A stretch of DNA of 64,000 nucleotides from Cephalotus follicularis (Eukaryota > Streptophyta > Magnoliopsida > Oxalidales > Cephalotaceae), in assembly GCA_001972305.1 (NCBI GenBank), contig BDDD01000041.1:350005-414004 (forward strand), written 5' to 3'. Under the pieces are notes generated by a model. The model had not been told where the DNA came from and searched no databases. It worked only from the letters and a program-made list of their open reading frames with translations. Position numbers and translations under genes: made by a program. This document shows, piece after piece, positions 931 to 52,490 of the stretch (positions are counted from its first letter, which is position 1; each line of letters starts with the position of its first letter).

Positions 931-2612
931 GTGCCCCTAGAAGAGGGCAACTCTGAGAGAGTCTTCCAAATTGGCTCACAGTTGGGAGATGTGGAGAAGG
1001 GGGAATTAATAACATTCCTCCGAAACAACAGAGACGTATTTGCTTGGTCGGCAGAGGAGGTCCCTAGGATCAGCCCAAGCCTAATGGTTCACAAGCTTAG
1101 TGTGGATCCAATGAGGCCTCCGACCAAGCAAAAGAAGAGGAACTTTGCTCTTGAGCGGCAGCAAGAAATAGCCGAGGAGGTAAGCAAGCTCATGCAGGCA
1201 GGGTTCATAAGGAGGTGCATTGCTCAGACTGGCTGGCGAACCCAATCCTAGTCAAAAAAGGAAATGGCAAGTGGAGGATATGCATTGACTTCACATACCT
1301 CAACAAAGCTTGTCCTAAGGATCACTTCCCTCTCCCAAAGATAGATCAATTGGTGGATGCGACCTCGGGCTACAGAATGTTGAGCTTCTTGGATGCCTAC
1401 TCGGGGTATAATCAAATCCCCATGTATGAGCCCGACGAGAACAAGACAGCTTTTATCACGGACTGGGGGATGTATTGTTACAAGGTCATGCCCTTTGGTT
1501 TGAAGAACGCAGGGGCTACCTTCCAACGACCGGTCAACAAAATCTTCGAGCCTCAAATCGGGAGAAACATGGAGGTCTACATAGAAGACATGCTCGTCAA
1601 GACCCCTGCCAGGAGCCCCCACATCAAAGACTTGGAGGAAGCGTTTGAGGTACTGACAAGATATAAAATGAAACTCAATCCTTCCAAGTGCACTTTTGGG
1701 GTCACATCTGGCAAGTTCCTCGGATTCATGGTCTCCAGCAGAGGAATAAAGGCCAATCCAGAGAAGATCTCCGCAGTTCAAAGCATGAGACCTCCCCAAA
1801 CCATCAGGGATGTACAAAAGCTAAATGGGAAGATAGCAGCCCTGAGCAGGTTTGTTTCGAAGTCAGCAGAGAAGTGCCTCACATTCTTTAAGGTGTTGAG
1901 GGATCCCAAGGGATTTTCTTGGTCGGACGAATGCCAAGTAGCCTTCGATAAGTTGAAGGAATACCTGGCCTCCCCTCCTCTGATCTCAAAACCTAAGGTC
2001 GAGGAAGACTTGTACTTTTACCTTGCGGCTACCCCGGGCGTAGTGAGTGCAGTGCTAGTTAGGGAGGGGGAGAAAGTTCAAAGGCCGGTGTACTACGTGA
2101 GCAAGGCTTTGAATGATGTTGAGGGGAGGTACCTAGAGGTGGAGAAGTTCGCTTATGCTCTGATCATTGCGGCCAGAAAATTAAGGCCAAATTTTCAAGC
2201 CCATACAATCAAGGTTCTGACTGGCAAACCACTCAAACAAGTTCTTGCAAAGCCTGACACCTCGGGCAGACTAATCAAGTGGTCACTCAAACTAGGCGAG
2301 TATGATGTGAAGTTCGAATCCAAACTAGCAATCAAATCACAAGTCCTGACCGACTTTGTTGGAGATAATACACCTACGGAGTGTATGGAGGAGGACCCCT
2401 CTGAGAGCGAGAGGGGGATTTGGAAGTTATCCTTGGATGGCTCATCTTGCATCACTGGCAGTGGAGCGGGACTGGTGATAACAATTCCAGGTGGTTGGAC
2501 ATTGGAGTATGCTCTGAGGTTCGGTTTCAAAACTACAAACAACGAAGCTGAGTGGGAAACTCTGATAGCCGGGCTGACAATTGCGAAGCACTTGGAGGTG
2601 CAAAAGATATAA
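931..2612 (+). pseudogene. reverse transcriptase and RNase H (element A)
   Basis: Reverse transcriptase copies the element RNA and RNase H removes it. The N-terminal part is in the 931-1251 frame; a one-base shift near 1215 moves the reading to the 1215-2612 frame. Visible motifs are [29 protein letters not shown] and MPFGLKNAGATFQ. The polymerase box reads YIED instead of YIDD as in element B, so a metal-binding aspartate is changed. RNase H follows, then the start of a second, archaeal-like RNase H (SLDGSSCITGSGAG, TNNEAEWETL), diagnostic for the Tat lineage. TAA at 2610-2612 ends the frame inside this second RNase H. Confidence 0.9.
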
Positions 2613-4135
2613 GCCTCCAGTGATTCTCAGCTAGTGGTTGGTCTGGCCAGTGGAGAGTATGAGGCCCAAGAAGACTCAATGGTGAAATATTTATCACACT
2701 TCCAGAGTTTGAAGTCAGCCTTAGAAATTCTAAGAGTTTTGAAAATACCCATAGCAGAAAACGCCCGAGTAGACCAGTTGTCAAAACTAGTCACTGCAGA
2801 AGAGCTAGAGAAGAATCAAACCATGCTGGTAGATTACCTGGACAGACCCACTATCTCTAAAGTAGATGTGATGGACACAGATTTACCATAGGAGCCAAAC
2901 TGGATGACCCCGTTCATCAACTGGATAAGGAATGGGATTTTACCCGAGGACCCTGCGGAGGCGAGGAAACTTGTGTACAGAGCAAACAGATTTCAGCTCC
3001 GTGATGGGATTCTCTACAAAAGGTCTTTCTCTTTCCCTTAGCTGAGATGCCTGACTCCCCTAGAGGCCGATTATTCTCTAAGGGAATTCCATGAAGGAAT
3101 TTGTGGCAACCATACAGGGGGCAGGACGTTGTCCCACAAGCTACTAAGGCAGGGCTACTACTGGCTGACCTTGCACCAAGATGCTATAGATTGGTAAGGA
3201 AACGTGACAAGTGCTAGAGGAACGCAAATATAAGTAGAAGACCTTCTCAACCTCTGACGTCTATTACGGTCCCCTGGCCCTTTGCACAATGGGGAATGGA
3301 CTTCGTAGGACCACTACCTATGGCGACAGGTCAAAGGAAGTTTCTCATTGTAGCAATGGACTATTTTACCAAGTGGGTAGAAGCAGAACCCCTGGCCACG
3401 ATTACAGAGAAGAACACGGAAAGCTTTGTATGGAAGTCCATCATCTGCAGATTCGGAGTCCCGAGGACAATAGTCTCAGATAGTGGAAAACAGTTCGATT
3501 GCCAGGCCTTCCGTGACTTTTGCAAAAAGTGGAGAATAGAGCATAAGCTCGCCTCAATAGCCTACCTCCAGAGCAATGGTCAAGTATAGGTGATAAATAG
3601 AGAAATCATCTCGGGCTTGAAAAAACGCCTTGAAGACAGCAAAGGAAGATGGACAGAGGAGCTACCAAGTGTATTATGGGCTTATAGAACCACTCCTTAG
3701 ACCACGACTGGTGAGTCCCCATACAGTCTTTGTTTCGGAGCTGAGGCTATGATACCGGTGGAGATTGGTGTCCAGTCACCAAGGGTTGTGCACTTCACTG
3801 AGGAGAACAATGAAGAAGGAGTTAGATGCCTGCTGGATATAGTAGGAGAGCTCAGAGATAAGGCCGCCGTCAGAGTTGCAGCCTATCAACAGAGGGTGAG
3901 CCGTTATTATAACAAAAGGGTAAGCCCCAGACCACTAAGACAAGGAGACCTAGTCCTACACAACTCAGCTATCGCAGACCTAACCGGTACCAGAGGAAAA
4001 CTCGCTCCCACCTGGGAAGGACTGTACAAGATCAAGAGAGTGCTTCGCCCATGAACATTCAAACTTGAAACTCTGGGGGGAAGAGAGATTTCCAGAGCTT
4101 GGAATGCCGAGCATTTGAGGAAATACTACCAATGA
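2613..4135 (+). pseudogene. second RNase H remainder and integrase (element A)
   Basis: After the stop at 2612 the sequence continues through EELEKNQTMLVDYLDRP to the integrase. The zinc-binding N-terminus is recognisable (HEGICGNHTGG) but interrupted. The DDE core is seen in MDYFTKWVEAEP, IVSDSGKQFDCQ and VINREII. The C-terminal part has YYNKRVSPRPLRQGDLVL and GTRGKLAPTWEGLYKIKRVL. Stops interrupt it: TAG before VINRE, TAG after RTTP, TGA after RVLRP. Element B has sense codons at these points. The final conserved tail (AEHLRKYYQ) ends at TGA 4133-4135. Confidence 0.85.
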
Positions 4136-5542: not shown

Positions 5543-8209
5543 CTAAGCCTCATCACCGGAAGGGATGTCTACCCCGGATGGAGGAACTGGAGGAGCATCT
5601 TCTTTCGTCAGAGGAGGAGGAGGAGGAGGGTCCTCGAAGCGGCAACCAGGAGGAAGAGGTGCATCATCCTTGGTCGTCCGTACTGGGGCAGGCTCCTTTG
5701 CATCGATGCGAGAAAGAGGCTCGACGTCTAAGACCCCAAGGTTGCCGTCCTCGGTGGGTGCAGCAAAGGGAACCATGTCATGGCCGTTAGGCGACCAACT
5801 GGGGTCCTGAGCATGACTTTGCTCTTCATCGAAGGCTCCGAAGGCTTCATCCTCAGCCTCTTCAATGCCCGCTGGGATGAAGTCATACTCTGCCATCGAA
5901 GGGCCGCAGACAAAGGAGTCCAATGGGAGATCTGGAAGGCACTCGACCATGTTTCGGCAGGTATAATACCCCCGACGAAAGTTGGCCGAAGACTTCTTCA
6001 AAACCTCGCGGTTGAAATCCTCAGAAGTCTTGTAGAGGTCCACGACCTAATCCATGACATCTTGGAACTCAGTTGACGCCTTAAAATCCAGGACTGCCCT
6101 CTCTGCAGCGGCTTTGACCCTAGCATCCCCAAGCTCTTGGGACTTGGTTAACTGGTTATATAGAGCCTCCAGCCTGCCCTCGAGCTCAACTATCCGCTCC
6201 ATGGCAACAATCTTGATCCCCCTCTCCCTCCTGGCCTCCTCACGACTCCATCCTTCTCGGCCGCCAAGCCCTCCTGGGCACCCAGCACTTCATCCAGCTG
6301 AGCACGGACCACAGCCAGAGACTTATTCAGCTCAGCATTCTCAGCCCCGAGTTGCTCGTTCAAGCTGGTCACCTAGTCAGTTCTGTCCATCAGAAGATGG
6401 GCATTGACCATGGTCTGAGGAAAAAAAATAACAACGGTTTAGAACTAGAAAAAGTTCAAAAAAGGAAGTCAATGTAATTGTGCTTACCCGATGGCAGCAC
6501 TGAAAGAGGTTGGTCCAGAGCTGTCTTGTCGACCACTTATTCCTTAGCCCAAGTTCGTAGGGGAACGTGCCTACTCTGCCCAGCTCCGTGGTGACTTAGG
6601 GCATCTCCAGAAAAACGCCGGCTCGGCCAAGCTCTCCGAGGATATCCCTCACTTGTGCGAGCTCCGCGGTAGGGTAAGGATGGTCGGGGTTAGAGGCGCC
6701 CCTCGACGGATACGTTCTAGGGAGCCTTCCCCTTCTCTGTCCACTGCCTTTTTGAGGGACGGGTGAGTTCAGTGTCAGTCATGGGTTCCCTGGATTCAGT
6801 AACTCGGGCCTCTTCGGCAGCACGGGCCTCTTCAGCAGCTCGAGCCTCCCTGGCCTCTGCAGCCCTGACCTCTGCAGCTCTAGCCTCTCTGGCCCTGGCA
6901 TCCCTGGCTTCCTCGGCTCCAGCAGCTCGGGTTTGGTTGTCCATATCGGCGTTGGCATAGTTAGTCTCTTCCTCTGCGCGCCTGGCCTCCTCGGATAGGA
7001 CCCGGGGTACCTCATCAAGCCTGGCCCTCGCATCAGCCCGCCTGGCTGCCCTCCTCTCCGTGGCCCTCCGGGACTTCTCCAAGGCCCTCTGCCTCTTCTC
7101 GGCATCTCTCTTTTGTACCTCTGGGTCGGCAGCATGGGCCTGTTCACGGCCAGCCCTGATCAGGTCCATGGATGAATCTTGGGATGCCATCTCTGCACAG
7201 ACAAGCGAAGAAGCAGTTAGTGAAACATCGAGAAGTTAGATATAAACTTAAAGAGAAAAGTTGTCCCAGAGAAAGCTTAGTACGACTCTCTCCTTGTGTG
7301 GTCGCAGAGGAAGTAGATCCACCATGGCCATCTTGGTCCCTCTCTCTCCGGATCCCCATAGGCACCTCCTCCGCCTCCAGCTCTAGTCTGGCTCTACGGC
7401 CTAGGGACATGCTGAGCCCATGTCGCCGTAGGTGGTCTTCGGACACCACCTTGAGCACATCCTCGGGTGCAAGGGCCGAAAGCCTTCTCAGGTCGGCGGC
7501 CTCTTCCCTGGTCAGAAATGACCTCTAGTTCAGAAGCCCGGTATCCAGTGTATCTGTCCAAGGACAGGGGATGAAGTCGGGAAGATTCTTGACTAGGAAA
7601 TATTTCTCCCTCCAGCACTTGACTGTCTTTGTGTTCTCCGCCAGCAGCTTAGGGCGACCCACGCGTGACTTAAAGTAAAAGCCGCGCTTCATTGGGGAGG
7701 AAACCAGCGTGTGGAATTCCTTGAACAGCCCAAGTGTGGGCACTGCATCCGCTTCAAGGCAGCGTACAAGGAATCCAAATATGAACCCCCAGGACTGAGC
7801 TTGCAACATCGACGGATGAATCCGGTAATGCCTGAGGACGGTAATGGCGAATGGCGGCAGCGAAAGTCTCAACCCATGTTCCAAAGCATCTTGGAACACC
7901 ACAAAGTTCCCGGGTTGGTTCACAGTGACTGACCTAGGGTCAGCCTGGATCTGCAAGTCTAGCCCACCAGGAATAGAGAACTCCTTAACTAATTGCGCCA
8001 TTTTTTGTGGGCGCATGGTAGTCTTATCAATAGGCCCAGAAAACTTGAACCCCGGCCCCCATGGCCTCAACATTTGGAGCTCCGGCAGTGGCAGCATCCA
8101 TCTCCACCCTCATATTGAGGGGGCGTTGAGCAATGGTAACCCCCGCAGATGCTTGGGCTACCACCTCAGGACGTCTGATTGTTCTCCTGGTTTGTTTCGT
8201 TCTGGCCAT
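5543..8209 (-). pseudogene. antisense spliced gene with histone H3-like N-terminus and Transposase_28-like domain (element A)
   Basis: Read on the minus strand from ATG at 8209. The protein starts M-ARTKQTRR; mature histone H3 starts ARTKQTAR. Exon 1 continues to about 7270 and contains a domain I recognise as Transposase_28-like (PF04195, 'putative gypsy type transposon'): DALEHGLRL, LRHYRIHPSMLQAQSWGF, GLFKEF, RGFYFKSRVG. A frameshift near 8040 splits it. An acceptor (CTGTGCAG) precedes exon 2 at 7192, which encodes an Arg/Glu/Ala-rich coiled-coil-like stretch and ends at 6488 before GTAAGC. Exon 3 starts at 6414 after CCTCAG and ends at 5543 with FRRGYYTC and an acidic, proline-rich tail. 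Element B has the same exon layout. Function unknown. An in-frame upstream ATG at 8251 is a possible alternative start. Confidence 0.8.
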
Positions 8210-8404
8210 GGGTTTGTCAGAGAGAGAGGAAGAGGAAGATGAAGTGGACATGGGAAACTTTGACCAGTAACGGGTAAATGAAAACTGAGTTCACCTGTGT
8301 TCTCAAGCGAAGAAGGAGACGAAGTTCGAAGGTTGGAAGAGAAGGGGATTCAAGAAATCTAGTGCTTTTAGGGTTTGTGAAAACATAAAGAGGATCCTCA
8401 AAGG

Positions 8405-8480
8405 GACAAGGGATATTTAACCCTAGGAACGGATCAGGACCGTAGATCCCAATTGTTTTCAATGGTGGAGATCCACCTGT
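8405..8480 (-). promoter_or_regulatory. candidate antisense promoter (element A)
   Basis: On the minus strand a TATA-like GGTTAAATATCC (8411-8422) lies about 200 bp before the antisense ATG. Upstream are GATCTACGGTCC and a perfect palindrome-like repeat GGTGGATCTCCACC (8464-8477). Element B has the same order, with GGTTGATCTCAACC, TCTAACGGTC and CTTTAAAAAGG before its antisense ATG. Promoter activity is inferred. Confidence 0.45.
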
Positions 8481-13077: not shown

Positions 13078-13359
13078 AGATGAAAGAGAAGCCAAAAATG
13101 AAAGGGATTTTGGCATTTTCCCTTATATACTCAACAAAACGGACTGGGTTTTGCCTAGAATTTAACCGATACTAACAGAAGTTTGATGTTTATGATATAT
13201 CACTTGGCTTATTTTCATAATTCAGCAGTCATTTTAGAAAACATCATTTAATTTACAGTAAAGAACATGTATTTGTTATGCAGAAAAATCATAAAAATTT
13301 ATTAATGTCGTAATGCATATGTCATGAATGCCAGAAAAACAGACTAACAGACAGACAGA

Positions 13360-13828
13360 NNNNNNNNNNNNNNNNNNNNNNNNNNNNNNNNNNNNNNNNN
13401 NNNNNNNNNNNNNNNNNNNNNNNNNNNNNNNNNNNNNNNNNNNNNNNNNNNNNNNNNNNNNNNNNNNNNNNNNNNNNNNNNNNNNNNNNNNNNNNNNNNN
13501 NNNNNNNNNNNNNNNNNNNNNNNNNNNNNNNNNNNNNNNNNNNNNNNNNNNNNNNNNNNNNNNNNNNNNNNNNNNNNNNNNNNNNNNNNNNNNNNNNNNN
13601 NNNNNNNNNNNNNNNNNNNNNNNNNNNNNNNNNNNNNNNNNNNNNNNNNNNNNNNNNNNNNNNNNNNNNNNNNNNNNNNNNNNNNNNNNNNNNNNNNNNN
13701 NNNNNNNNNNNNNNNNNNNNNNNNNNNNNNNNNNNNNNNNNNNNNNNNNNNNNNNNNNNNNNNNNNNNNNNNNNNNNNNNNNNNNNNNNNNNNNNNNNNN
13801 NNNNNNNNNNNNNNNNNNNNNNNNNNNN
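13360..13828. other. assembly gap (469 N)
   Basis: Undetermined bases. Open frames through the N run are artefacts. Confidence 1.
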
Positions 13829-14913
13829 GGGGGGAGAGAGAAAGAATCACAAAAATAAGACAAAAATGGCATCTTCCTTTATATTTAAACAAAACAGACT
13901 AGTTTTGCCCAGAATTTAACCGATACGGACAGAAATTGGATGTTTAGGACATACCACTTGGCTTGTTTTCCGAATTCAACAGCAATTTCAGAAAAACATC
14001 ATTTAATTTACAGAATAGAATATTAATTTGTTATGCAGAAAAACTATCAGAATGAAATCAAACTGATAAAAATTTCATTAATGTCATGATGCAGATGTCG
14101 CAAATGTCAGAAACAGAGACTAACAGCTAGTCAGATAGATAGAAAGCCATGTAGGCTCACAGACACAGACTACTGGGACACGGATGTCATAGGATCAGCT
14201 GACCTAATAATATCAATTGTCATTTTGCATACACTGTCTAAAGCTTGGTCAAAAACTATGCTCACAGTCTCGCATGAATGTTGAAATCGTTCTTGTGCCG
14301 CCCTATTAGAACATCATAAACTGACAATATTCACAAATATGCCTACCATTTCAAGGGCACTCATTCTTCTACTAACTTTCAAACCGTAACATGATTGCAA
14401 TTTATTAATCAATTTAATGAACACATACTTTTCCATCCTGAACATGTTGAAACATCTTGTTTCATTTCCTTGCATAACTTCCAATATCCACTTATACCTA
14501 GTTTGATGTGAATTCATGCAAGGTTATTTAGAAATATATTTATAATAATATTCACCTACACAACATACAGTAACTGCCAAAAGAAAATCCTCCTCCTCAT
14601 CCTCCTAGTTCTGAGCATCACGTTCATCATCATTTGCTATTATCAAAATCAACACATGATCAAATATAAAATAATAAATTTTATATCTTCATGCGCACAT
14701 ATACACAGAGACATACACATAAATATACATATACAACTTGTTTCTAACATTATTATACGTATTATTTAAATACTTATCTCTTTAAAAAAGAACATCTCCA
14801 CTTAATTATTACAATATTTATAATAAAAAAAACACACAATTGTTCAACATGAACTTAATTTAAATTTTTCAACAAAGCAAGAAATTACGAAAACATGCTT
14901 GCATAAGTGTCAC

Positions 14914-26948: not shown

Positions 26949-27017
26949 GGTTGATCTCAACCGTTTAACCCCGCCGAGATCTAACGGTCTGTAAGTAATC
27001 CCTAGCACTTTAAAAAG
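26949..27017 (+). promoter_or_regulatory. candidate antisense promoter (element B)
   Basis: Plus-strand order: inverted repeat GGTTGATCTCAACC (26949-26962), TCTAACGGTC (26980-26989), TATA-like CTTTAAAAAGG (27007-27017), then ATG at 27245. TCTAACGGTC fits the plant MSA consensus YCYAACGGYY bound by MYB3R factors in G2/M-phase genes. Element A has the same order with a compensating change in the inverted repeat. The leader may contain an intron (GGTGAGG near 27140 to CTCTCTCTAG at 27235). Activity is inferred. Confidence 0.45.
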
Positions 27018-27244
27018 GCGCTATCTTCTCAGAGAAGTTTCTTTACGCTTCTTTGGATCTTCAAAGCTTTTACCCTTTCTAGTTTTTCAATATTCCCTAA
27101 TTTCCAATCAATTTCCTTTCGAGTCTTCTTCATCAGAATCTTTGGTGAGGCTTTTCTCTGGCTTTGTATATTTTTGAGAAACTGTTTGGTCGCCTCTAGG
27201 GTTTTTCTGAGTTTTTACCTTCTCTCTCTCTCTAGAAATTTTGA

Positions 27245-29625
27245 ATGGCTAGGACCAAGCAAACCTCCAGACAAGCTAACGATCCAAATGTGGCGAGCCG
27301 CATGGCAGGAGAAGTTAATATTGTCGAGCGTCCTCTAGGTGCTGAGGAGGATATGGACGCCGCCGCCACGGGTGCCCCCAAAGCTACCTCTACCAAAGTG
27401 GGGGCCAAAATTTTTAGGACCCAGTTCGATAAGAGTGTGCTCAGCCGAGAGAAAGTGAAAGAGTTGGCCAGGGAATATTCCTTCCCGAGAGGTTTGGAAT
27501 ATGACCTTCCCATTGATCCCAAAGAGACGACAAAGAGCAGACATGGTCTCTTTGTGGTATTTTTGGATGCTCTGGAGCATGGTCTGAGGCTCCCGATTCT
27601 GTCCTTTGCTATTGTGGTCCTAAGGCATTTAAAAATCCACCCATGGCTATTCCAATCGCAATCTTGGGCCTTAATCATAGGATTTTTGGTGAAATGTCTG
27701 GGGGTTGAAGCGGTTGCTACAGTGGGGCTCTTCAAAGAATTCCATATTCTGGATCTCTCTTCAAGAAAGCGCGGGTACTACTTCAAGTCCCGTCCTGGAC
27801 TGACCAAGAAGCTGCTAGTAGAGCCCACCAAGTCTGTCAAGGGTTTGAGAGAGAGATACTTTCTCGTCAGGAATCTCCCTAGGTTTACCCCTTGCCTGTG
27901 GTCGGACACACTGGATATTCAACACCTTAACAAGATGCCAGTTCTGTCTATAGGCGAGAGGGCCGACTTGGTAAGACTCTCCGCTTTGGAGCCAGAGGGG
28001 GTGAATCATACCGTGTGGGAAGATCGCCTTAGCCGGGTTGGGATAAGCATGTACTCGGGTTGGTGACACCACTTGGATGATGAGGAAGAGATTCCGATCA
28101 GGATAGAGAGAGAGAGGTGAAAGCATCTTAGATGAACCCAAGGCTCGGCCCGTGACCGAGGAAGAAAGATGTATTAAGCCTTTGTCTCCTCCATTTCTAA
28201 CTTCTTTATTTCTTTCATTCACTTATTATTTTTTGTTGTGCTTTTGATTATGTGCTTTTTGTGGTTCTTTACAGCTATGGGTCCTCGATGCAATGTGACT
28301 GATATCCTAAGAGTTATCAAGGAGAAGAGGATGTAGGTGGTCGTCGAGGGTGCAAGGCCGAGAGAAACCATTGAGGAGGCCGAGAGGAGGTCTATCACTG
28401 CTACAGCTGCCAAGAAGAAAACTGACAAGGGCAAACGGCCTGCGGATGAATGTCCTCCTACTGCTCTTCCCACTCTTCCAACCAGGAATCACAGAGGAAG
28501 GAAAGGGGTAGAGAACTCTTCTCGGGGCCGAGAGAACGATCCTCCTGCTGTGAGCCCTCAAGACCGGATTCACCTCGGTGCCCCTCGGGATGTCGACAAG
28601 ATGATAGACGAGCTGGAGGTGTTAGGTAGCTCTAGCTTGAACTTGAATACTCTTGGGGTCCTCTTGAACTCAGCTGGCTATTCTTCCTTCCATCCGAGCT
28701 CCAAGCTAAGAAGGGCTGGAGCCTTGAGATGCTAATAAACCACTGCATCTGGAGCAACATTAGGGTAAGTGATTTCTTATGTTTCCTTTCAAATATATTC
28801 TTCGCTTTCCCTTTGACACCCGTCTTTCTCTGACAGGCTCTAAACGATGCCCAACTGATGGTGGAGAAATTCAAAGCCATCCTTGAGCAAAACGACCAGC
28901 TGAGGGGAGAGGTAGCAGAGCTCAAGGAGACAGCCCACTCGGCCAAAACTCATTTGGAATAGGTTCTCAGGGCCCAAGAGTCCATCACAGAGTAGAGGAG
29001 GTAGGCCGTTGAGGCTTTGGAAAATGAGAGGGAAGAGAAGAAGGCAGTGGAAAGGGACCTTGTGTGCATCGGTGATATGTACTGTGCTCTGGATGAAAAG
29101 TTCTTTGGCTACCATGACAAGGATGATGCTCGAGTCAAAAAGGCGGTGGAGAAAGCTCTGTGGACTTCAAGTGTTCGGATGAATTCCATACTCTAATGGA
29201 GGCCTCCGTGGAGGACTTTAAAGCTTCTTCTACTTTTGAAGAGGAAGTATTCAAGGAATCTACAGAGTATTTCCGTCGGGGCTTCTATTCTTGTTGGGAT
29301 CTCGACTCACCTTCCTATGGTTCCCTTGTCCCAAATTGTTTGCTGCTCGACTGCTGATAACTTCAACTTCTACTCCGAGGGGTTCGAGGTAGAGGAGGAG
29401 AAAGCTGGGCTTGCCTTAGAAGAGGGAGCTCGTCTTGCTCGGGAAGAAGATGAAACATAGAGAATCGTGTCCCCGGATCTAGTTATCCTACCCTCGTATC
29501 CTGCTGTGGCCACTTCTTCTCCGCTGCATTCTTTAGAGCTCGTTACTCCTCAGCCTCCTACCTCTGAACCCTTTGCTGCTCCTCTGCCCAAGGATGATCA
29601 TGAGCCCTCACCTCCCGAGCCTTAG
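27245..29625 (+). pseudogene. antisense spliced gene with histone H3-like N-terminus and Transposase_28-like domain (element B)
   Basis: ATG at 27245 is fixed as the start because TGA (27242-27244) lies directly upstream in frame. The protein begins M-ARTKQTSR. Residues about 60-210 form a Transposase_28-like domain (VVFLDALEHGLRL, LRHLKIHPWLFQSQSWAL, GLFKEFHIL, RGYYFKSRPG). Exon 1 has a TGA at 28064-28066, where A has a sense codon, and a donor AG/GTGAAAG at 28116/28117. Exon 2 (28275-28764) follows TTTACAG and is Lys/Arg/Glu-rich; it has one TAG near 28334. The next intron is clear: GTAAGTG at 28765, acceptor TCTGACAG, exon 3 from 28837. Exon 3 is coiled-coil-like (LEQNDQLRGEVAELKE), then FRRGFYSC and an acidic, proline-rich end at TAG 29623-29625. 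Frameshifts near 29158 and 29300 disable it. Function unknown. Confidence 0.8.
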
Positions 29626-30690
29626 TTTTGTAATTTTTGGTTTTCTTTCTCATTATAATTTCCTCTTAACAACAGTAATAAAAATTCGAAGTTTTGTTCT
29701 CACTATGTGTTTTTTCATTCCCTTAAGAATTCTCTTTCCTACTCTGCATGCTTTTATAGTTTCTTTAGCTTTATCAGAGCACTTACAATTCCCTTAGGAA
29801 GAAATTAATGCAAGCAATAGAACTTAACTTCTGCCTCATTTGAACATTGCAATTCCCCTTAGGAATTTTTACTTAGTCTATTTTATAGACTTCTTGTATT
29901 GTGGTCTTACAGTTTTCAGACCTAACTACCTAAGCTTTCTAACCCCCATAGGACACTTTATATCAAAAGTGCTTAGGCAAAGATACTTGGTCATTGCGAG
30001 TTCTTACGTGTTCGCTGATCAAGTTTTGGATTTGCTCGGACTAGTTCTTACGAGTTTTCGAGTAGGATCTCGTCTGGTCTGTTATTTTCTAGACCAGGTC
30101 ATCTAAGCTTGCAGCCCTCGTGGGGACGCTTGTTTCAAAGTTCTCAGTCCAACAACTTTGATCGTTGCGAGTTCTTGTGGATTCGCCTCTCAAGTTACAA
30201 TATCGGTTTGGTCGGACAAGTTCTTATGGGGTTGTCGACCAGCGTTTGCTCCCTTGGGAGTCTTATTGCTTACTTAGAAGTCTTTTGCTAATAAAATTTA
30301 GGTGCTCCTGGGACGGAGTCTTTATGCTTCTCGGATTGAGTCTTTGTGCTCATCGGAAGGAGTTTTTGTGCTTCTCTAAAGGAGTCTTTGTGCTCCTCGG
30401 AAGGAGTCTTTTCGGATTTGAGACCTCGGTCTGTTCGAGACTTTAGTCTATTCTGATTACTCCATTAGGAGTTTTAAGTTTTCGTGAGACTTGCAGAGCT
30501 CTAGTCTTGTATCAAGGCCTGCTCTAGTTGCTTCCTTGGGAGCGTAGTCGGACAAGCTTGTATTAAAGCTTCTTGACTGAGGGAACTAGTCGGCAGCTCT
30601 TCAGAGGTTTAAGGACTTGAACATGCTTTTTTGAAGAAAAAATTCATATTTATTGATATTCTTGAATTTTGAACATATGTACATACTTGC
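29626..30690. other. 3' untranslated region between antisense gene and integrase (element B)
   Basis: No coding signal. It contains the hairpin repeat array at 30240-30420 and words shared with element A 4970-5370, for example the reverse of CTTAGGTGGTTAAGC and CTAAGGGGGC. Confidence 0.6.
30240..30420 (-). repeat. tandem hairpin repeats (element B)
   Basis: About six units of 22-27 bp, minus-strand unit CAAAGACTCCTTCCGAGG then AGCAC. It aligns with the unit of element A. The stem is CTCCT/AGGAG here and CTCCC/GGGAG in A. Units such as CTCCCTTGGGAG and CTCC/GGAG keep pairing, while some have lost it. Confidence 0.75.
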
Positions 30691-30695
30691 ACTAG

Positions 30696-32053
30696 TCATT
30701 GATAGTACTTCCTTAGATGCTTGGCATTCCAAGCTCTAGGAATCTCCCTGCACCGTAGAGTTTCAAGTTTGAAAGTTCTTGGTCGGAGCACTCTTTTCAC
30801 CTTGTAAGGCCCCTCCCAATTTGGAATTAACTTCCCTCTGGTACCGGTTGGATCATCTATTACCGCATTGTGGAGGACTAGATCTCCTTCCTTTAGTGGT
30901 CGGGGATTTATCCTTTTGTTGTAATAACGGCTCACCCTCTGTTGGTAATATGCTACTTTGATGGCTGCCTTATCTCTGAGCTATTCCACTAAGTCAAGGA
31001 GGTTTCTCAATCCTTCTTCATTATTTTCCTCACTAAAATGAACAACTCTAGGTGAATGCATACCAATTTCCACCGGTATCATAGCTTCTGAACCGAAACA
31101 AAGGCTGAATGGAGACTCGCCTGTTGTGATCCGAGGAGTGGTTCTATATGCCCATAGTACACTTGGTAACTCCTCGGTCCATCTTCCTTTGCTATCTTCG
31201 AGGCGCTTTTTTAACACTGAGATGATTTCTCTGTTAATGACCTCTTCTTGGCCATTGCTCTGGGGGTAGGCTACTGAGGCAAGCCTATGTTCAATTCTCC
31301 ATTCACCGCAAAAGTCTCGGAAAGCTTGGCAATCAAACTGCTTCCCATTGTCAGAGACTATTACTCTCGGGACTCCGAATCTACAGATGATTGATTTCCA
31401 GATGAAGCTTTCCGTATTCTTCTCAGTTATTGTAGCTAGAGGCTCAGCTTCCACTCATTTAGTGAAGTAATCCACTGCCACAATGAGATACTTTCTCTGC
31501 CCTGTTGCTACTGGTAATGGTCCGACAAAGTCCATTCCCCATTGTGCAAAGGGCCAAGGGGCCGTGATGGATGTCAAATGCTCGGATGGTCTTCTGCTTA
31601 TATTTGCATTCCTTTGACACTTATTACACTTCCTTACAAAGTTGATGGCATCTTAGTGAATGGTCGGTCAGAAATAGCCCTGTCTTAAAAATTTATTGGA
31701 CAAGGTCCTGCCCTTGTGTGATTCCCACATACACCTTCACGAACTTTGCTTAGAGCATAATCGGCCTCTGAGGGAGTCAAGCATCTCAGCCAAAGAAAAG
31801 AAAAAGACCTTTTGTAGAGGATCCATTCTCGGAATTGGTATATGTTTGATTTATACACCAATCTTCTCGCTTCCTCTGGGTCCTCTGGCAAAATTCCATC
31901 CCTTAGCCAACTAATGAACGGAGTCATCCAATTTAGCTCTTGTGGTACATCAATGTCCATTACATCCAACTCCGCGATGGTGGGCCTTTCCAGATAGTTC
32001 ACTAGTACGGTTTGATTTTTCTTCAATTCCTCCGTTGTGGCTAGTTTTGACAA
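30696..32053 (-). pseudogene. integrase and upstream linker (element B)
   Basis: The upstream linker and zinc region are at 32053-31685 (TEELKKNQTVLVNYLERP, then REGVCGNHTRAG). The DDE core is at about 31530-31000: MDYFTKW then [40 protein letters not shown]. The C-terminal part (30935-30696) has YYNKRINPRPLKEGDLVL and PNWEGPYKVKRVLRPRTFKLE. Gaps between these frames show stops and shifts, for example between TLSN-type zinc-domain sequence and the core. The long core frame is intact, unlike element A. Confidence 0.85.
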
Positions 32054-32200: not shown

Positions 32201-33884
32201 CTAAGAATCACTAGAGGCTTCTATCTTTTGAACCTCTAAGTGCTTTGCAATTGTCAGTCTGGTGATCAGAGCTTCCCACTCGGCTTCATTATTTGTAGCT
32301 TTGAACCCAAATCTCAGAGCATACTCCAAGGTCCACTCATCTAGACTAGTTAACACAAATCCTGCTCCACTCCCGGAGATGCAAGATGAGCCATCAACAG
32401 AAAGCTTCCATAATCCCCTATGGTCTTCTGGGGAGTCTCTTCCATACACTCCGTAAGTGTATTTTCTCCAAAAAAATGGGCCAAGACCTGTGATTTTATT
32501 GTTGGTCTGGCCTCAAACTTCACGTCGTATTCGCTAAACTCGATAGACCACTTGACTAGCACTGTACTTGCCTAAGTGGTTAGTCGGTCAAAACCTTGAT
32601 TGTGTGGGCTTGAAAATATGGCCTCAACTTCCTCACCGCAATGATCGGAGCATATGCATACTTCTCTACCTCTTGATACCTCCCCTCAGCATCATTCAAG
32701 GCCTTGCTCACATAATACATGGGCCTTTGAACTTTTTCCACTTCCCTGACAAGCACTGCACTCACTGTGCCTGATGTTGCTGCAAGGTACAAATACAAGT
32801 CTTCTCCATCTCTTGGTTTCAATATCAGAGCAGGGGAAACCAGGTATTCCTTCAATTTCTCGAAGGCTGCTTGGCATTCTTCCCACCAGGAAAATCCCTT
32901 GGGATCTTTCAACACCTTAAAGAATGGAAGGCATTTTTCTGCTGACTTGGAAACAAACATGCTCAGGGCTGCAATTCTACCATTCAATCTATGTATGTCC
33001 CTGATAGTTTTTGGAGGCCTCATGCCCTGAATTGTTGAAATCTTCTCTGGGTTGGCTTCTATCCCTCTGTTTGAAACCATAAACCTGAGAAACTTACCAG
33101 AAGTGATCCCAAAAGTACACTTGGAGGGATTGAGACGCATTTTGTATTTCCTCAATACTTCAAAAGTTTCCTCCAAGTCCTTGATATGAGGACTCTTTGC
33201 TGGTGTCTTGACGAGCATATCGTCAATATATACCTCCATGTTCCTTCCGATCTGAGGTGCAAAGATTTTATTGACCAACCGTTGGTAAGTCACACTTTTA
33301 TTCTTCAATCCAAAGGGTATGACGTTGTAGCAATACATGCCCCTATCCGTGATGAAAGCTATCTTGTCCTCATCAGGCCCATACATAGGGATTTGATTAT
33401 AACCTGAGTATGCATCCAAGAAGCTTAACATTCTATATCCGGAGGTTGCATCTACCAACTGATCAATCTTCGGGAGGGGGAAGTGATCTTTGGGACAAGC
33501 TTTGTTGAGGTTTGTAAAATCTATACACATCATTCACTTGTCATTAGCCTTCTTGACTAGAATCGGGTTCGCCAGCCAGTCAAAATAATGCACTTCCCTA
33601 ATGAACCCCGCTTGTAATAGCTTGTTTACTTCATCTACTATTACTTGTTGCCTCTCATGGGCGAAGTTCCTTTTCTTTTGTCTGGTCGGATGCCGCATCG
33701 AATCCACGCTTAATTTAAGCACCATCACCTCTGGGCTGATCCGAGGGACCTCCTCTACTGACCAGGTGAACACATCTCTATTTTTTCTGAAGAACGTTAT
33801 TAGTTCATTTTTCTCCATCTCTCCAAGTTGTGAGCCAACTTGGAATACTTTCTCAGCATTGCCCTCCTCCAAGGGCAATTGCAC
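32201..33884 (-). pseudogene. reverse transcriptase, RNase H and second RNase H (element B)
   Basis: 33884-33534 is the N-terminal region and 33533-32580 the polymerase core and first RNase H. The break between them is TGA in place of the Trp codon of K-W-R-x-CIDF. Motifs: [39 protein letters not shown] with both catalytic aspartates. A frameshift near 32570 follows LTD. The second RNase H-like domain is in 32449-32201 (LWKLSVDGSSCISGSGAG, NNEAEWEALI). Better preserved than element A. Confidence 0.9.
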
Positions 33885-36776: not shown

Positions 36777-36800
36777 TTGGGTAAGGTTTACCGGATATGA

Positions 36801-39800
36801 TCATGGAGGCTCATAAAGAGGCTCATGCAAGTCCATGGCCTCTTTCAGCGGCGCAGCTGGAAGCTCTAAAAATTTCTTCAATCGTTGCCCATTTACTTTG
36901 AAAACATCTTCAGTACCTGGCTTACATATCTCAACAACACCATATGAGAAAACATTTGTAACAATATACGGACCATCCCAACGAGATCTTAATTTTCCAG
37001 GAAACAAATGTAAACATGAATTATATAAAAGAACCTTGTCTCCTACTTCGAAGCTTTTTCGCAAAATCCGCGCATCATGAAAAGCCTTGGTCTTTTCTTT
37101 GGAAATCTTCGCATTGTCATACGCGTCATTTCGAATTTCTTCTAACTCGGACAATTGAAGTGCACGATGACTACTTGCAATGGAACGATCAAAATTTAAA
37201 CACTTAATAGCCCAATATGCTTGATGTTCTAATTCCACCGGAAGATGACAAGCTTTACCATACACAAGACGGTAAGGAGATTGACCAAGATCAGTTTTGA
37301 AAGCGGTTCGATAAGCCCATAAAGCATCCACAAGTCGCATGGACCAATCCTTTCTATTGGGGTTAACTGTTTTTTCGAGAATTTGCTTGATTTGGCGATT
37401 AGATACCTCAACTTGCCCACTCGTTTGGGGATGATATGGTGTGGCGAGCTTATGAGTGATCCCATATCTTTTCATCAATGCTTCAAACGAACGATTGCAA
37501 AAATGAGTACCTCGATCACTGATAATGGCATGTGGGGTGCCAAAACGAGAAAAAATATGTCCTTTGAGAAATTTAAAAACAACGAAGTTGTCATTTGTTC
37601 GACAAGGTATCGCCTCAATCCACTTTGAAACATAGTCAACAGCTAGAATGATGTATAAGTTCCCAAACGAATTGGGAAACGGACCCATAAAATCAATACC
37701 CCATACATCAAAGATCTCGACCGTCAAAATCGGTGTCATAGGGGTCATATTTTGTTTCGTCACACGGCCTAAAGCTTGACACGAAGCACAAGCCTTACAG
37801 TACTGAAATGCATCTTTAAAAATCGTCGGCCAATAAAAACCACATTGTAAAACCTTAGCCGTTGTCTTGGTCGGGCCGAAATGTCCAACACATGCTTGAT
37901 CATGACAAAAAGATAGAATCGAGCGATGCTCATGATCAGGAATACATCGTCGCAAAATCAAATCCGGACATGCTTTAAAAAGATAAGGATCATCCCAATA
38001 ATAATGTTTCGCTTGCGACTGAAACCTATGCCTTACTTGAGCGGACCAATCTGAGGGTACACTTCCCGTAACAAGATAATTCACTATATCCACATACCAT
38101 GGTTCCCTTTCAACGCGCAGAATGTGCTCATCCGGAAAACTCTCATTAATCAGACCATGGACTTCGGGTGGATTGGGAAGTCGGGATAAATGGTCGGCTA
38201 CCAAATTCTCAGTTCCTTTCTTGTCTCGAATTTCAACGTCAAACTCTTGAAGAAGTAGAACCCACCGGATAAGACGTGCTTTTGCATCCTTTTTACTCAT
38301 AAGATGCCGAATCGCAGCATGATCAGTATACACGATGACATGTGATCCTAAAATATATGAACGGAATTTCTCAAGAGCAAAGACCACAGCTAAAAATTCC
38401 TTCTCAGTCGTCGTGTGATTTAATTGTGCATCGGAAAGGGTCCTACTAGCATAATAAATGACGTGAGGAAGTTTATTCATTCTTTGTCCGAGAACAGCTC
38501 CAATGGCACTTTCGGAAGCGTCGCACATAATCTCAAAAGGCTCAGTCCAAATGGGTGCCTGAATAATAGGAGCGAAAGTGAGCTCATTCTTTAAGCGGTC
38601 AAATGCTACAAGGCACTCATCAGAGAAAACAAAATCTTGATCCTTCGCAAGGAGCGAAGTCAAGGGACATGCGACCTTGCTAAAATCCTTGATGAACCTT
38701 CGATAAAAACCAGCATGTCCGAGGAATGCTCGGATATCTTTCACATTACGAGGTGGAGGCAAATGCTTGATGACTTCAATTTTCGCTTTATCTACTTGAA
38801 TTCCTTCTTTTGACACTATATGTCCAAGAACTATCCCCTTCTTCACCATGAAATTGCATTTTTCCCAATTAAGCACTAAATTCTTCTCTCGACTTCTTTC
38901 GAGTACTAACTTTAGGTGAGGAAGGCATTGAGAAAAGGAGGAACCATGTACAGAGAAGTCATCCATAAACACTTCAAGAAAGTCTTCCACCATGTCAGAG
39001 AAAATACTCATCATGCACCTTTGGAAGGTAGCGGGAGCATTGCAAAGGCCAAACGACATGCGTCGGTAAGCAAATGTTCCGAAAGGGCATGTGAACGTGG
39101 TTTTCTCTTGATCTTGCGGTGCGATGGAAATTTTATTGTATCTGGAGTACCCATCGAGAAAACAATAATACTCATGACCAGCCAACCTATCAAGCATTTG
39201 ATCGATAAACGGAAGTGGAAAATGGTCCTTCCAGGTTGCTGTATTTAACTTGCGGTAGTCAATGCACACTCTCCATCTGGTTTGGATTTTCGTAGGAAGT
39301 AAATCATTGGTGGAGGATTGCATTACTGTTACTCCGGATTTCTTTGGAACAACGTGGACTGGACTAACCCATTGACTGTCCGAAATGGGATAAATGATCC
39401 CATTGTCCAGCCACTTCAGAATTTCTTTTTGGATGGCTTCTTTCATCAAGGGATTTGCTCGTCACTGAGGTTCTCTAGAAGGTTTGGATCCTTCTATGAG
39501 ATTTATGCGATACTCGCAGATGGAAGGGCTAATTCCTTTGATGTCAGCCATCGTCCAACCAATTGCCTCTTTGTTTTCTTTGAGTAGGTCAATAACCTCA
39601 TCTTCCTGACTGGGAGTAAGATCAGATGAAATGATAACAGGAAGAGTTTGGTTTTCACCTAGAAATGAGTATTTCAACGTAGAGGGAAATTTTTTAAGTT
39701 CGAGTTTTGGAGGTTCCTCAATTGATGGTTTAGGCAAGGATGTGGATAAGGGGCCCACTGGCTCTAATGGCTGCATACTAAATACATCAACGAAATCACC

Positions 39801-40403
39801 TCCATCGCCATCCTCTAAATCCCGCATGCAATCATTGAAATTTCCATCAAAATCAATGTCGAATTGCGTCTCAATATAATCGGGAAAGGTATGGATTGCA
39901 TTCAATTCATCGAAATCATCGGCATGCTTACCTAATCGGAACACATTGAAGTCCACGGATGTATTTCCGAAGCTTAATCTCATCAGACCATTTCGACAAT
40001 TGATTAGCGCATTACTTGTAGCGAGGAAAGGTCTACCAAGGATAACAGGAATTTGATCATTTAAGTTTGCAACAGGCTGGGTGTCTAAGACGACGAAGTC
40101 TACAGAAAAGAAAAACTCTCCAACCTTTATCAACACATCCTCGATTTTTCCTCGTGGTACCTTCACAGACTTATCCGCTAATTGCAATATCATCGTCGTA
40201 GGTCTTAACTCTCCTAATCCAAGCCTCTCATAGACCGATGACGGTAATAAGTTCACACTCGCTCCTAAATCGAGCAAGACATGCTCAATTTTCGTGTTTC
40301 CAATAACACAAGTGATTGTCGGGCAGCCAGGATCTTTATACTTTCGTATCGTGGGTAGCGAAAATAATGCACTAATGTTGGCTGCCAAGAAAGCCTTTTT
40401 CAG
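36801..40403 (-). pseudogene. Athila C pol: protease, reverse transcriptase, RNase H, integrase
   Basis: 40388-39462 holds the protease (VLLDLGASVNLLP, PVILGRPFLATSNALI). TGA at 39459-39461 (an Arg codon changed) separates it from 39449-36801, 882 residues open. RT motifs: [45 protein letters not shown] with both aspartates. RNase [43 protein letters not shown]. Integrase: [10 protein letters not shown]...CKACASCQ zinc site, [28 protein letters not shown]. The protein ends in [17 protein letters not shown] near 40404 separates it from gag. Replacing three codons would restore a long open frame, so this is a fairly young insertion. Confidence 0.95.
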
Positions 40404-40406
40404 GGT

Positions 40407-42287
40407 CTAAAGGATCCTCTTTTTCGTGCATAAGTCTTTTAGAACTTTTGCGTAAGAGGGCACCTGTTCAATGGCTTCAAGCAATGGAATATTGATTTGG
40501 ACTTGTTTAAATGTTTCAATGATATTTTCCATTGCTGGGGCTTTCTTGTTTTGCAATCTTTTTGGAAAGGGAGCTGGTGGATCAAATGAACGTTTTGGCT
40601 CCTCGACCGGTTGTTTCTTTTTTTCATCCTCTTTCTCCTTCCTCAATTCCTCATGCGCATTCAATTGCATTGGTTGCACGGATGGGTCAGCCAATGGTTC
40701 CTTATAATTTTCGTGCGCCAAAGGTTCTTCCATTTTCTCGCTCATGTTTTCCGTTTGATCCGCGGGATGGTATTCAGTTTCACTCCTTAGGGCAAAAACT
40801 TGTTTTGATGGACCCGAGGAGGAAGCTGAATTTTGCGGATTAACAGGTTGTTGAAATTGAGCGGAATGGTTTAAGGCAGTTCTAAGATTCGGGTCAGGTT
40901 GTGAGGGCATTTTTCCTTTTTCTCTTTCATGCAGAGCGGATGCTAGTTGCGAAATTTGTTTTTCCATGTTATGCTGACTAGTCATCACAGTGCTGATAAG
41001 AAGTTCCATGCTCTTTTCTAACGACGACATCCTAGGTGTATCATCCCTTTGGTTTGGCAAGCTTGATGGTTGTTGATTTGAAAATTGATTTTGCGGTGGG
41101 AAGGATGGACGATTAGTGTTTGAATTTTGGGAGAACCATGGAAATTTCTGTTGTGGTGCAGACTGGCTAGGGAAGCTTGAAGGTTGTCCCGAAAAGTGTG
41201 GAGGTGGGGCACCAACGCTAGAAGGCTGCCCCAAAAAGCTAGATTGTCCTCGCATGTTTTGCCCTTGACTCCATGAGAAGTTTGGATGATTGCGCCAACC
41301 CGGATTGTAAGTGTTACTATACGGGTTGTATTGGTTCATAGCAGACACATTCTCAGGAGTATATTGATTTTCAATGTAGCTTTGGCATTCTTCGATCAAA
41401 TGACTTGGTGACTGGCACCAAGAACACATATGGGTGTTTTGATTGATTTGATTCACTTGTGTGGAACCCCTAATAAGTGATTCTAGTCTATTAACGAGAC
41501 TGTCTAACTGTGCCTCTTTAGCAACTGCTCCTTCTATAACGTACCCTTTATTTGGTAATGCTCTCTCGGAAACTTGAGCTGACTCCCGCTCTCTAGTTCG
41601 CTCACCCAAATCTAAAAGGAAATTTCATGCATCATTTTCATCAGTGTACGAGGTGAACCCATCGGGACACATAGATTCGACCAATTGCTTGGTCTGGTAG
41701 TCGATCCCTTCGTAGATGATTTGGCATAAATGCCACGTGTTTAAACCATGATGAGGACACTCTAAGAGAAGATCCTTAAAACGTTCCATACACCTAGAAA
41801 ATGATTCATTTGGTTTTTGACGAAACTGGAGAATGTCGTTCCTAAGTTTATTCGTTTTATGAAGCGGAAAGAATTTCTTAAGGAACGAGACAGTGAACTG
41901 ATCCCAAGTGGAGATGGAATTAGTTGGGAGACTGTAGAGCCACTTCTTAGCTCCATCTTTAAGAGCAAAATTTATGAAGCGCAACTTGATATCATCGTCA
42001 GATAGTTGCTGAAGTTTCATGAGGGCACATACCTCCTCGAACTCACGAAGGAAGAGATATGCATCCTCATTGGGTACACCATGAAAGTGCGGGAGCATAC
42101 TAATGAATTGTGATTTTAACTCAAAATTGTTCCCGTTAGGTGCAGGCAACAGGATACTGGATGGTTGCGCTGTCCTAGCGGGGTAGAATTTATCGCGAAG
42201 AGTTTGAAGTGGGCGTGCGTCCGCCATTGGTCTTGGTTGATTAATTCTTTCTAAGCGATGATTTGGACCACGCACCCAATCGGTCAT
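40407..42287 (-). pseudogene. Athila C gag
   Basis: Starts MTDWVRGPNHRLERI at 42287. The capsid-like Retrotrans_gag domain includes FHGVPNEDAYLFLREFEEVC, DGAKKWLYSLP and FPLHKTNKLRNDILQF. TGA at 41622-41624 replaces a Trp codon (END-A-W-NFLLDLGE). The second half (41609-40407) has a zinc knuckle CSWCQSPSHLIEEC (C-x2-C-x4-H-x4-C), a Gln/Pro/Ser/Asn-rich low-complexity region, a Lys/Glu-rich stretch and SYAKVLKDLCTKKR. Gag assembles the particle and binds RNA. Confidence 0.9.
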
Positions 42288-43010
42288 AAACTAACAACTA
42301 GGAATCCTAAACTAATGGTAAAAATTAACTTAGCAAAATTAGGGTTTGTTTAAAGCTTATGCAAAGATTATGAGAATTTGTTGTTAAAGCTTATGCAATT
42401 CCCTAATTAAACTAAGCTAACGGAAACACAAAGGTCAATGCAAGAAACCTAATTTATCTACGTTAGAAAATTGTTAAAGTTTATGCGAATGAAGTTAAAG
42501 TTTGTTAAAAATTATGCTGAACCTATTTAAACTAAATTAGAATTGTTAGAAAAACACAAAAACAGAAAATAAAAAAATAAAAGAAAAAGAAAAATACAAA
42601 TAGAAAATAAATAATTTGAACGTAGACGAAACTGGACAAAAACAGTCAAAAATAAATTAATATAAACAAGCAGAAAAAATAACTTAAACAAAAAAAAAAT
42701 GAAATGAAAAAAAATAAAAATAAAATTAGTTAAAAGACTAAAGAAACATAAACTTAGCTCATACATTAACGAGCAAAACAAAAAAATCAAAACTAAATAT
42801 CAACGTCAAACAGTCACACAAGGGGAATGAGGCAACAAACCTCCTCGAACTCGCGAAGGAAGAGATATGCATCAAAATTGGGTACACCATGAAAGTGCAC
42901 GGAGCATGCTAATGAACTGTGATTCGAACGCAAAATTGTTCCCGTTAGGTGCAGGCAACAGGATACTGGATAATTGAGCCAACCTAGGCGAAGTAGACCA
43001 AATATGATTG
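42288..43010 (-). other. rearranged Athila leader with a duplicated gag fragment
   Basis: 42288-42810 is AT-rich leader. 42813-42985 is a diverged copy of 42020-42170 of gag, encoding FHGVPNFDAYLFLREFEEV. It then joins the interior of an Athila LTR at about 43011. The primer site and LTR end that should be here are missing. Confidence 0.65.
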
Positions 43011-48190: not shown

Positions 48191-48864
48191 CAAACACCAG
48201 ACACCCAAAGTACTAAGTAACTTAAGAATTTGCAATTCGCACATACAACAATTAAAACTTTACCAAATTAAATTCGTGTAATGTCTTAGCATTTTAAACA
48301 TTCTAAAATACTCATGTAGCGAGCTTTCGACTAGTTACTCTCAAACCAATTGGCTTTAAGGAACTGAGTGTAGAACACCCTTAAGGCTTAATTACTCTAA
48401 TCAATTAGGCTACAGACTAAGACTGAATTCAAACAGTTAAAATAAATTTCTTTTTCTTTTTCTTCTTTTTATTGTATATATATATATATATGCAAGAACA
48501 TCAATTCATTGTCCTCCTCCTCACTAAGATTTATGAAACTTTGAAAAACACACAAGATTCATTTATTTTTCTTTCATTTATTATTGCACAAACTCCTATC
48601 TTGAGATGCATTCATTTTCTTTTCCTTGAAAACAAAATTTTTATTATTTCTCCTATGGGGTTTTCTATTATTTCTAAGTATATCAATATTTATTCCTACT
48701 TTCAAAAATTAAAATGAATTTTGGTCTAAACCCCCCCATACTTAAAGTTTGCATTGTTCTCAATGCAATAAAAAGTAATTAAAGAAATGACAATGAATGA
48801 GCACGAATATAAGAAACAACGCAATAAAATAAAGAACAAAAGGGGTAAGGTTTGCCGAATATGA

Positions 48865-51800: not shown

Positions 51801-52490
51801 AATGTGGACAAAGGGCCCACTAGTTCCAAAGGTTGCATACTAAACACATCAAAAAAGTCACCTCCATCCACATCCCCTAAATCCTGCATACACTCCTTGA
51901 AATTTTCATCAAACTTAATGTCAAATACCGTATCAATGTGATCGAGAATGGAATGAAGCATATGCACTTCATTAGCTGGCTGCTTTCCCAGACATAAGAC
52001 ATTGAAGTCCATTGACGTGTTTCCGAAGCTCAATCTCATCATCCCATTTTGGCAATTGATCAAAGCATTACTCCTGGCCAAAAATGGTTTACCAAGGATA
52101 ATTAGAATTTGATCTTTTATATTATTCACAGGTTCGGTATCTAAGATGACAAAATCTAAAGGAAAGATAAACTCGTCAACCTTAATTCAAACGTCCTCAA
52201 TTTCTCCTTTTGGGATTTTCATCAACCGATCCGCTAATTGTAATGTCGTCGTGGTCGGGCGCAACTCTCCTAAACTTAGCTGCTCATAAACGGAAGATGG
52301 CAACAAGTTGAAACTTGCTCCTAAATCAAACAAAGCATGTTCAAATCTTGTATTGCCGATGACACAAGAGATTGTCGGGAAATCGGGGTCTTTGTATTTT
52401 TGCACCATGGGTTGCGAAAGCATCGCACTGACTTTTGCAGCCAAGAAAGCCTTTTTCGGAGTCGGATGGACTCACTTTTGCATACATAAG
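48865..52490 (-). pseudogene. Athila D pol: protease, reverse transcriptase, RNase H, integrase
   Basis: Broken into many frames but collinear with element C. Protease ALFDLGASFNLLP and ILGKPFLARSNALI (52444-51770). [20 protein letters not shown] (51483-51172), [23 protein letters not shown] (51123-50725). RNase H around 50740-50290. Integrase [37 protein letters not shown] (50343-49450). Tail 49332-48865 ends [14 protein letters not shown]. At least ten stops or shifts. Confidence 0.9.

Follow-up and report, generated by a model that had tools for sequence, protein, structure and literature searches.

The N-terminal peptide (M)ARTKQTxR is conserved at the amino acid level over many copies and several diverged subfamilies of a retroelement accessory protein in Cephalotus follicularis, where it stands ahead of a TRP28 domain. 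The accessory protein of one large Retand-like clade probably carries in this peptide a mimic of the N-terminus of histone H3, which would be bound by host proteins for the benefit of the element.

Two elements with an H3-like start

The window, i.e. the whole stretch of C. follicularis DNA that was analysed (64,000 nucleotides; positions 350,005 to 414,004 of contig BDDD01000041.1), contains two retroelements, A and B, each of which has an accessory ORF in antisense. The relevant features, with positions in the window, are as follows.

27245..27271, plus strand: MARTKQTSR, the H3-like start of the antisense ORF in element B (ATG GCT AGG ACC AAG CAA ACC TCC AGA)
27242..27244, plus strand: in-frame TGA abutting the element B start; the next ATG in this frame is the one at 27245
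27009..27016, plus strand: TATA-like box TTTAAAAA, 236 nt 5′ of the element B ATG; a consensus match with putative promoter activity
27245..28066, plus strand: element B antisense accessory ORF, an open frame of 273 aa
27554..27751, plus strand: Transposase_28/TRP28 domain (PF04195), element B residues 104–169, E 4.8e-6
30981..31454, minus strand: element B pol, integrase core piece, on the strand opposite to the accessory ORF
32580..33533, minus strand: element B pol, RT and RNase H piece
8183..8209, minus strand: MARTKQTRR, the H3-like start of the antisense ORF in element A (ATG GCC AGA ACG AAA CAA ACC AGG AGA)
8249..8251, minus strand: upstream in-frame ATG of element A, an alternative start 42 nt (14 codons) 5′, with MSTSSSSSSLSDKP preceding MARTKQT
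8413..8420, minus strand: TATA-like box TTAAATAT, 211 nt 5′ of the element A ATG; a consensus match
7525..8109, minus strand: element A frame that contains TRP28, not in register with the H3-like start
1155..2612, plus strand: element A pol, RT and RNase H
3218..3589, plus strand: element A pol, integrase core

An earlier note on this DNA had pointed to the peptides MARTKQTSR (27245, plus strand) and MARTKQTRR (8209, minus strand) and to four synonymous codon differences between the two copies (in A, R, T and K), and all of these are present as described. The PF04195 scores are 27.2 bits for element B and 37.5 bits for element A (cut-off 26.2). The element A antisense frame is broken near 8040, with its TRP28 part in a different frame. 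A scan of six accessory-protein sequences (five with a tail, and the element A TRP28 frame) found PF04195 as the only domain; a core histone domain was absent. Both accessory frames lie antisense to their own pol pieces (RT, integrase) and 3′ of them, the same arrangement as has been described for the TRP28 gene in Retand (PMC11963269). By PF04195 and by position, the A and B accessory ORFs match the Retand-type antisense TRP28 protein, and the elements are classed on these features as Retand-like Ty3/gypsy. The A and B copies alone were matched in the window by tblastn with the antisense proteins.

The window has other repeats as well. Tandem repeats are found 3′ of pol in element A (4679–4917, 27-bp units) and in element B (30302–30412, 44-bp units), and resemble arrays reported for Retand. 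Two more related retroelement copies, whose pol is about 81–82% alike, lie on the minus strand at 36779–42295 and 48843–54287, and an 87-bp tandem repeat is present in about three copies at 59682–59949. Six-frame open frames at 13276–13919 were rejected as a feature, this being an assembly gap (469 N).

Conservation in copies selected by the TRP28 domain

Sixty copies were picked on TRP28 similarity alone and not by the motif. Twenty came from a PF04195 search (chosen from the 150 matches listed because they were stop-free and had open frames of at least 274 aa) and 40 from a search with element B residues 101–273 (among 150 matches listed, ranks 2–21 and 20 lower ranks). The tail was sought in any frame, 150–420 nt 5′ of the domain. 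Exact MARTKQT is found in 35 copies, 6/7 matches in 15 and 5/7 in seven, so that 57 of the 60 have at least 5/7. The other three are L211, which belongs to another clade, and L234, which has an apparent deletion, both with 4/7, and L241, which is without such a start.

Residue counts were made on the 57 copies with at least 5/7 matches, and as three of the 60 are left out they carry a mild bias toward conservation: A1 in 45 (V in six), R2 in 53, T3 in 54, K4 in 57, Q5 in 52, T6 in 53 and R8 in 49. Residue 7 is free (S 23, K 11, T 10, R 9, F 2, A 2) and residue 9 is mixed; the K9 of H3 and subsequent residues are mostly not retained in element copies.

Rates of change were compared in 34 sequences, consisting of 33 of the 60 domain-picked copies plus window element B (groups A 16, B 11 and T 7), with 27 copies dropped for frame shifts, stops within the first 60 codons or lack of a tail. 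The earlier note had proposed comparing the tail codons with the rest, and between the Cephalotus subfamilies the outcome is in favour of its reading. Between groups (365 pairs), codons 2–7 show a pS of 0.97, i.e. saturated synonymous sites, a pN of 0.079 and a ratio of 0.081 (bootstrap 0.041–0.131), as against a ratio of 0.568 (bootstrap 0.541–0.598) for codons 10–60. Elsewhere the between-group ratio is 0.52 for codons 8–9, 0.59 for 10–30, 0.55 for 31–60 and 0.58 for 61–100. Within groups (196 pairs) it is 0.20 for codons 2–7, 0.43 for 10–30, 0.38 for 31–60 and 0.40 for 61–100. Codons 2–7 rank lowest in pN among 94 six-codon windows. It should be pointed out that two individual codons, 30 and 31 (P, L), are equally fixed, and the tail is therefore not the sole conserved spot. 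The residual pN is probably in part post-insertion noise, the copies being decaying insertions; A1V, for example, is a C-to-T change. Codons 3–7 and 9 are little changed and codon 8 is free, which is the pattern of residue-by-residue reading of a peptide. That selection acts on the peptide, and not on the DNA, had been inferred in the earlier note from two copies, and it is supported here by the domain-picked sample as well as by the genome-wide counts given below.

A conserved N-terminus of this kind might also be a basic nuclear-localisation or stability signal, with the likeness to H3 being coincidental. The constant positions of R, K and R, together with the K/R at residue 7 in one subclade, would fit a basic patch, and a nuclear location is reported for the accessory protein of Grande, a related maize element (PMC11963269), a point that also speaks for mimicry. 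However, T3, Q5 and T6, none of them basic, vary about as little as the basic residues, and K4 is never R (57/57 K) with synonymous sites saturated, although K/R swaps should be tolerated in such a signal. In addition, that six residues and R8 should all agree by chance at the corresponding terminus is very unlikely, with an estimated probability of ~20^-6 per protein. We regard a localisation or stability signal as an unlikely explanation.

Start codon, leader and promoter

A total of 107 starts were compared: 48 from motif-picked loci (eight supplied with the pattern search and 40 chosen from its listing), 57 from domain-picked copies and two from the window. In 66 of these, a stop precedes the start in frame and no in-frame ATG intervenes, and two have neither stop nor ATG; the other 39 have an upstream in-frame ATG without an intervening stop. 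Nearly all of the latter (35 of 39, window A with its ATG at 8251 included) are of a Ser-rich type, M(S/T)xSSSSSSLSxxP-MARTKQT(K/R)R or variants of it; three of the remaining four have an ATG immediately before the motif ATG, and the fourth is L005. The subclade with the Ser-rich leader (window A, L195–L214) has K/R at residue 7 in place of A, S or T. The claim in the earlier note of a fixed start holds for element B, which has the TGA at 27242–27244. It does not extend to element A, whose start is not fixed because an in-frame ATG is present 42 nt upstream (8251).

The possibility arises that the motif is internal to a longer protein begun at the upstream ATG, with ART read inside the chain, e.g. 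by a WDR5-type protein, which may read ART as an internal motif. The in-frame ATG at about −42 in one subclade, window A included, is consistent with this, and 38 of the 48 starts that have K/R at residue 7 and enough leader show an in-frame ATG within 190 nt (intervening stops ignored). However, the B, T and ARPSPP types have an intervening stop or no in-frame upstream ATG, the counterpart of the −42 ATG lies in a different frame in L009, L018, L146, L148 and L164, mostly by changes in the length of a CT repeat, and the context of the upstream ATG is weak. We find an internal motif distinctly improbable. A free tail is predicted, with good support from these reading frames, for the B-, T- and ARPSPP-type clades, and in the A subclade either start may be used.

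Upstream of the tail, a TATA-like box is found at −265..−185 in 64 of the 69 loci with enough upstream DNA (45/48 and 19/21 by type), and the bins from −250 to −201 hold 99 TATA-like matches vs about 4.5 in shuffled sequence. The leader behind this recurrent box is approximately 200 nt long and pyrimidine-rich near the ATG.

Abundance of the tail and its relation to H3 genes

The search pattern consisted of ATG followed by A R T K Q T with all codons of Ala, Thr, Lys and Gln, and with Arg as MGN, so that AGY Ser was also admitted. The 1.58 Gb C. follicularis assembly has 2551 exact matches to this degenerate MARTKQT pattern (1278 + 1273), vs two genome-wide for the reversed-pattern control. 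When codon 5 is freed there are 2702 matches, with Lys in 2551 of these (94%), and the control gives 13. Codon 9 is AGN/CGN in 2338 (92% of the 2551), an upper bound for Arg since AGY Ser passes. TRP28-protein sequence is also present at 45 of the 48 motif-picked loci (tblastn, residues 41 on, E <= 1e-5); of the remaining three, L015 and L152 are similar at the N-terminus only and L002 resembles the others by eye only. Codon usage among the 100 matches listed is varied: Ala is GCC in 45, GCT in 36, GCG in 12 and GCA in seven; Arg2 is AGA in 72, AGG in 26 and CGA in two, with no Ser; Thr3 is ACC in 50, ACT in 30, ACA in 10 and ACG in 10; Lys is AAG in 59 and AAA in 41; and Gln is CAA in 66 and CAG in 34.

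H3 residues 1–7 (ARTKQTA) followed by an AGN/CGN codon are found at 548 genome places, and ARTKQTARK, as in true H3, at 14, with Arg2 as CGN in nine and AGR in five. Because the ARTKQTARK places number only 14, nine of them with a CGN Arg2, the H3 genes account for very few of the 2551 matches and cannot explain the count. Four ARTKQTARK places were fetched. One (L256) is an H3 gene, and the other three (L255, L257 and L258, on contigs C236, C1554 and C1571) are element copies that read ARTKQTARK followed by I/V and are nearer to H3 than the window copies. The statement in the earlier note that H3 similarity ends at R8 is thus correct for both window copies, but not for these three, which match through K9.

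These observations bear on whether the tail is a relic of the 5′ end of a captured host H3 gene, kept by descent and not for mimicry. The identity is at the very start of the ORF, and of the four ARTKQTARK places fetched, three belong to element copies whose match to H3 extends to K9. However, with synonymous sites saturated, plain descent would have lost the peptide, and similarity is not evident beyond residue 8 or 9. The DNA upstream of L256, the one host H3 gene fetched, has no blastn match to element leaders, and Arg2 is AGR in 98 of the 100 matches listed vs CGN in nine of the 14 ARTKQTARK places. Retention by descent alone is very improbable; an ancient capture of H3 followed by selection is conceivable. 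That the stretch serves as a signal in DNA or RNA (packaging, priming, splicing) with incidental amino acids is scarcely credible, in spite of its location close to one end of the internal region, as 45 different 20-mer spellings occur among the 100 matches listed, every Ala codon and every Thr codon is used, and pS is 0.97 over codons 2–7.

Distribution of the tail

The 30 best PF04195 matches (L165–L194) form a distant TRP28 clade of this genome that is more decayed. The tail pattern is present in 0/30 of these, and in the 600 nt upstream the best score is 4/7, found in 1/30 vs 2/30 for shuffled DNA. Altogether, 90 domain-picked copies were read, 57 with a recognisable tail and 33 with none. 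The N-termini of some L165–L194 copies follow the pattern MAS..S..ES.

A tree of 70 TRP28 rows places every one of the 24 tailed rows in one 29-row branch (support 95/93, with the bootstrap not fully settled). The other five rows of this branch are Cephalotus gene models whose starts are uninformative, and hence four changes of the ‘tail’ label are counted and not one. Outward from the tailed clade branch the tailless L211 together with P0033 as sister, the Ensete rows and the distant Cephalotus clade (midpoint root, arbitrary).

A further 119 proteins listed by the third of the TRP28 protein searches, mostly from Ensete but also from Musa, an orchid, a metagenome and two Cephalotus entries, contain none of ARTK, AKTK, RTKQ or TKQT; these are gene models and thus weaker than DNA. 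The three protein searches reached almost exclusively Cephalotus and Ensete, and the tail is so far known from Cephalotus. A MARTKQT start is found in 0/18 Cephalotus TRP28 gene models (P0002–P0019). P0002 is the same as locus L235, and because the L235 DNA reads MVRTKQTTR upstream of the annotated start of P0002, database N-termini are weak evidence.

The earlier note had taken homologous antisense ORFs without ARTKQ as evidence against its reading. Such ORFs exist, in the distant clade (0/30) and among the 119 listed proteins (0), but 57 of the 60 domain-picked copies keep at least 5/7. By the tree and the copies sampled, the tail is restricted to one branch and is not general to antisense TRP28 proteins. 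Since other TRP28 clades are without it, the tail would not be needed for TRP28 function generally.

In IMG/VR, the bare DNA pattern is present in 115 stretches, and an alignment query found no relative; one candidate (L001) was rejected as an apparent chance match in a phage-like contig. A PDB search with TRP28 gave two chains only (E 0.73–0.74), and a short tail query, maybe too short to score, gave nothing.

A possible ligand for readers of the H3 N-terminus

An initiator Met ahead of Ala is normally removed, and its loss would leave the accessory protein with a free H3-like end, A1-R2-T3-K4-Q5-T6. This end might be bound by host proteins with specificity for H3 residues 1–6, such as PHD-type readers and H3K4 writers or erasers. 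The TRP28 part could then bring H3K4 machinery to element DNA, or the protein could draw the machinery off host chromatin; in either case, transcription or integration of the element would be favoured. The tail is most likely a ligand for a host reader of the H3 N-terminus or for an H3K4 enzyme, because the contacts of KDM5B PHD1 match the conserved block and because the SNAG mimic recruits a demethylase. The human KDM5B PHD1 finger contacts only the first six H3 residues and reads A1, R2, T3, K4 and T6 (PMC4225485); the conserved block of the tail consists of the same six residues.

Several points stand against mimicry. The upstream ATG, if used, would bury the tail in the A-type subclade, and residue 7 is often K/R, which also fits a basic localisation signal. 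A/G is favoured at −3 of start codons, whereas the base at −3 before the tail ATG is mostly C (72/107). In addition, N-acetylation could block the Ala end.

Histone mimicry is known in viruses and in a few host factors. Influenza NS1 has an ARSK-type H3 mimic and is thus another case of imitation of the H3 N-terminus, by a virus protein, but the mimic is at its C-terminus, whereas the element tail is N-terminal, as in H3. The SNAG sequence differs from that of H3; in contrast, residues 1–6 of the element tail, a putative mimic, are identical to H3, and the tail belongs to a plant retroelement. The SNAG domain of Snail/GFI1 is an N-terminal H3 mimic that recruits LSD1, an H3K4 demethylase (PMC12612597), and the element tail may be likened to it as an imitation of the H3 tail that would engage an H3K4 enzyme. 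The type I chromodomains of chromoviruses have a cage that reads methylated H3 lysine (PMC6317226). These are likewise plant retroelement domains tied to the biology of the H3 tail, but they read the tail, whereas the element protein would present one.

A further close system is the antisense TRP28 ORF of Retand elements, which shares PF04195, the antisense orientation to gag-pol and the position 3′ of pol (PMC11963269, PMC6317226). The protein is reported in 97% of recently active Retand clusters (PMC11963269), and Transposase_28 in 23% of Retand elements (PMC6317226). DNA binding has been predicted for it, with its function termed unknown (PMC11963269, PMC6317226). An H3-like start is undescribed in the available text of these papers: the word ‘histone’ is absent from the main text of PMC11963269, and PMC6317226, in the part available, mentions H3 for chromodomains only. 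The string MARTKQT occurs in PMC11005252 (algal centromeres) and PMC5469831 (xylem histone marks), and among the open-licence PMC papers listed no report was found of a transposable element that presents the H3 N-terminus.

A more specific form of mimicry is put forward tentatively. The lineage may have evolved an authentic free H3(1–6) end on an antisense protein that resembles DNA-binding proteins; this end would be acted on by readers, writers and erasers of H3K4 and would place or steal H3K4 machinery at the element's own antisense promoter and 3′ LTR. The H3-like tail bears on the TRP28 antisense protein, the function of which is termed unknown (PMC11963269). If the mimic reading is true, the protein would be a histone-tail-presenting anti-silencing or targeting factor that is encoded in thousands of copies.
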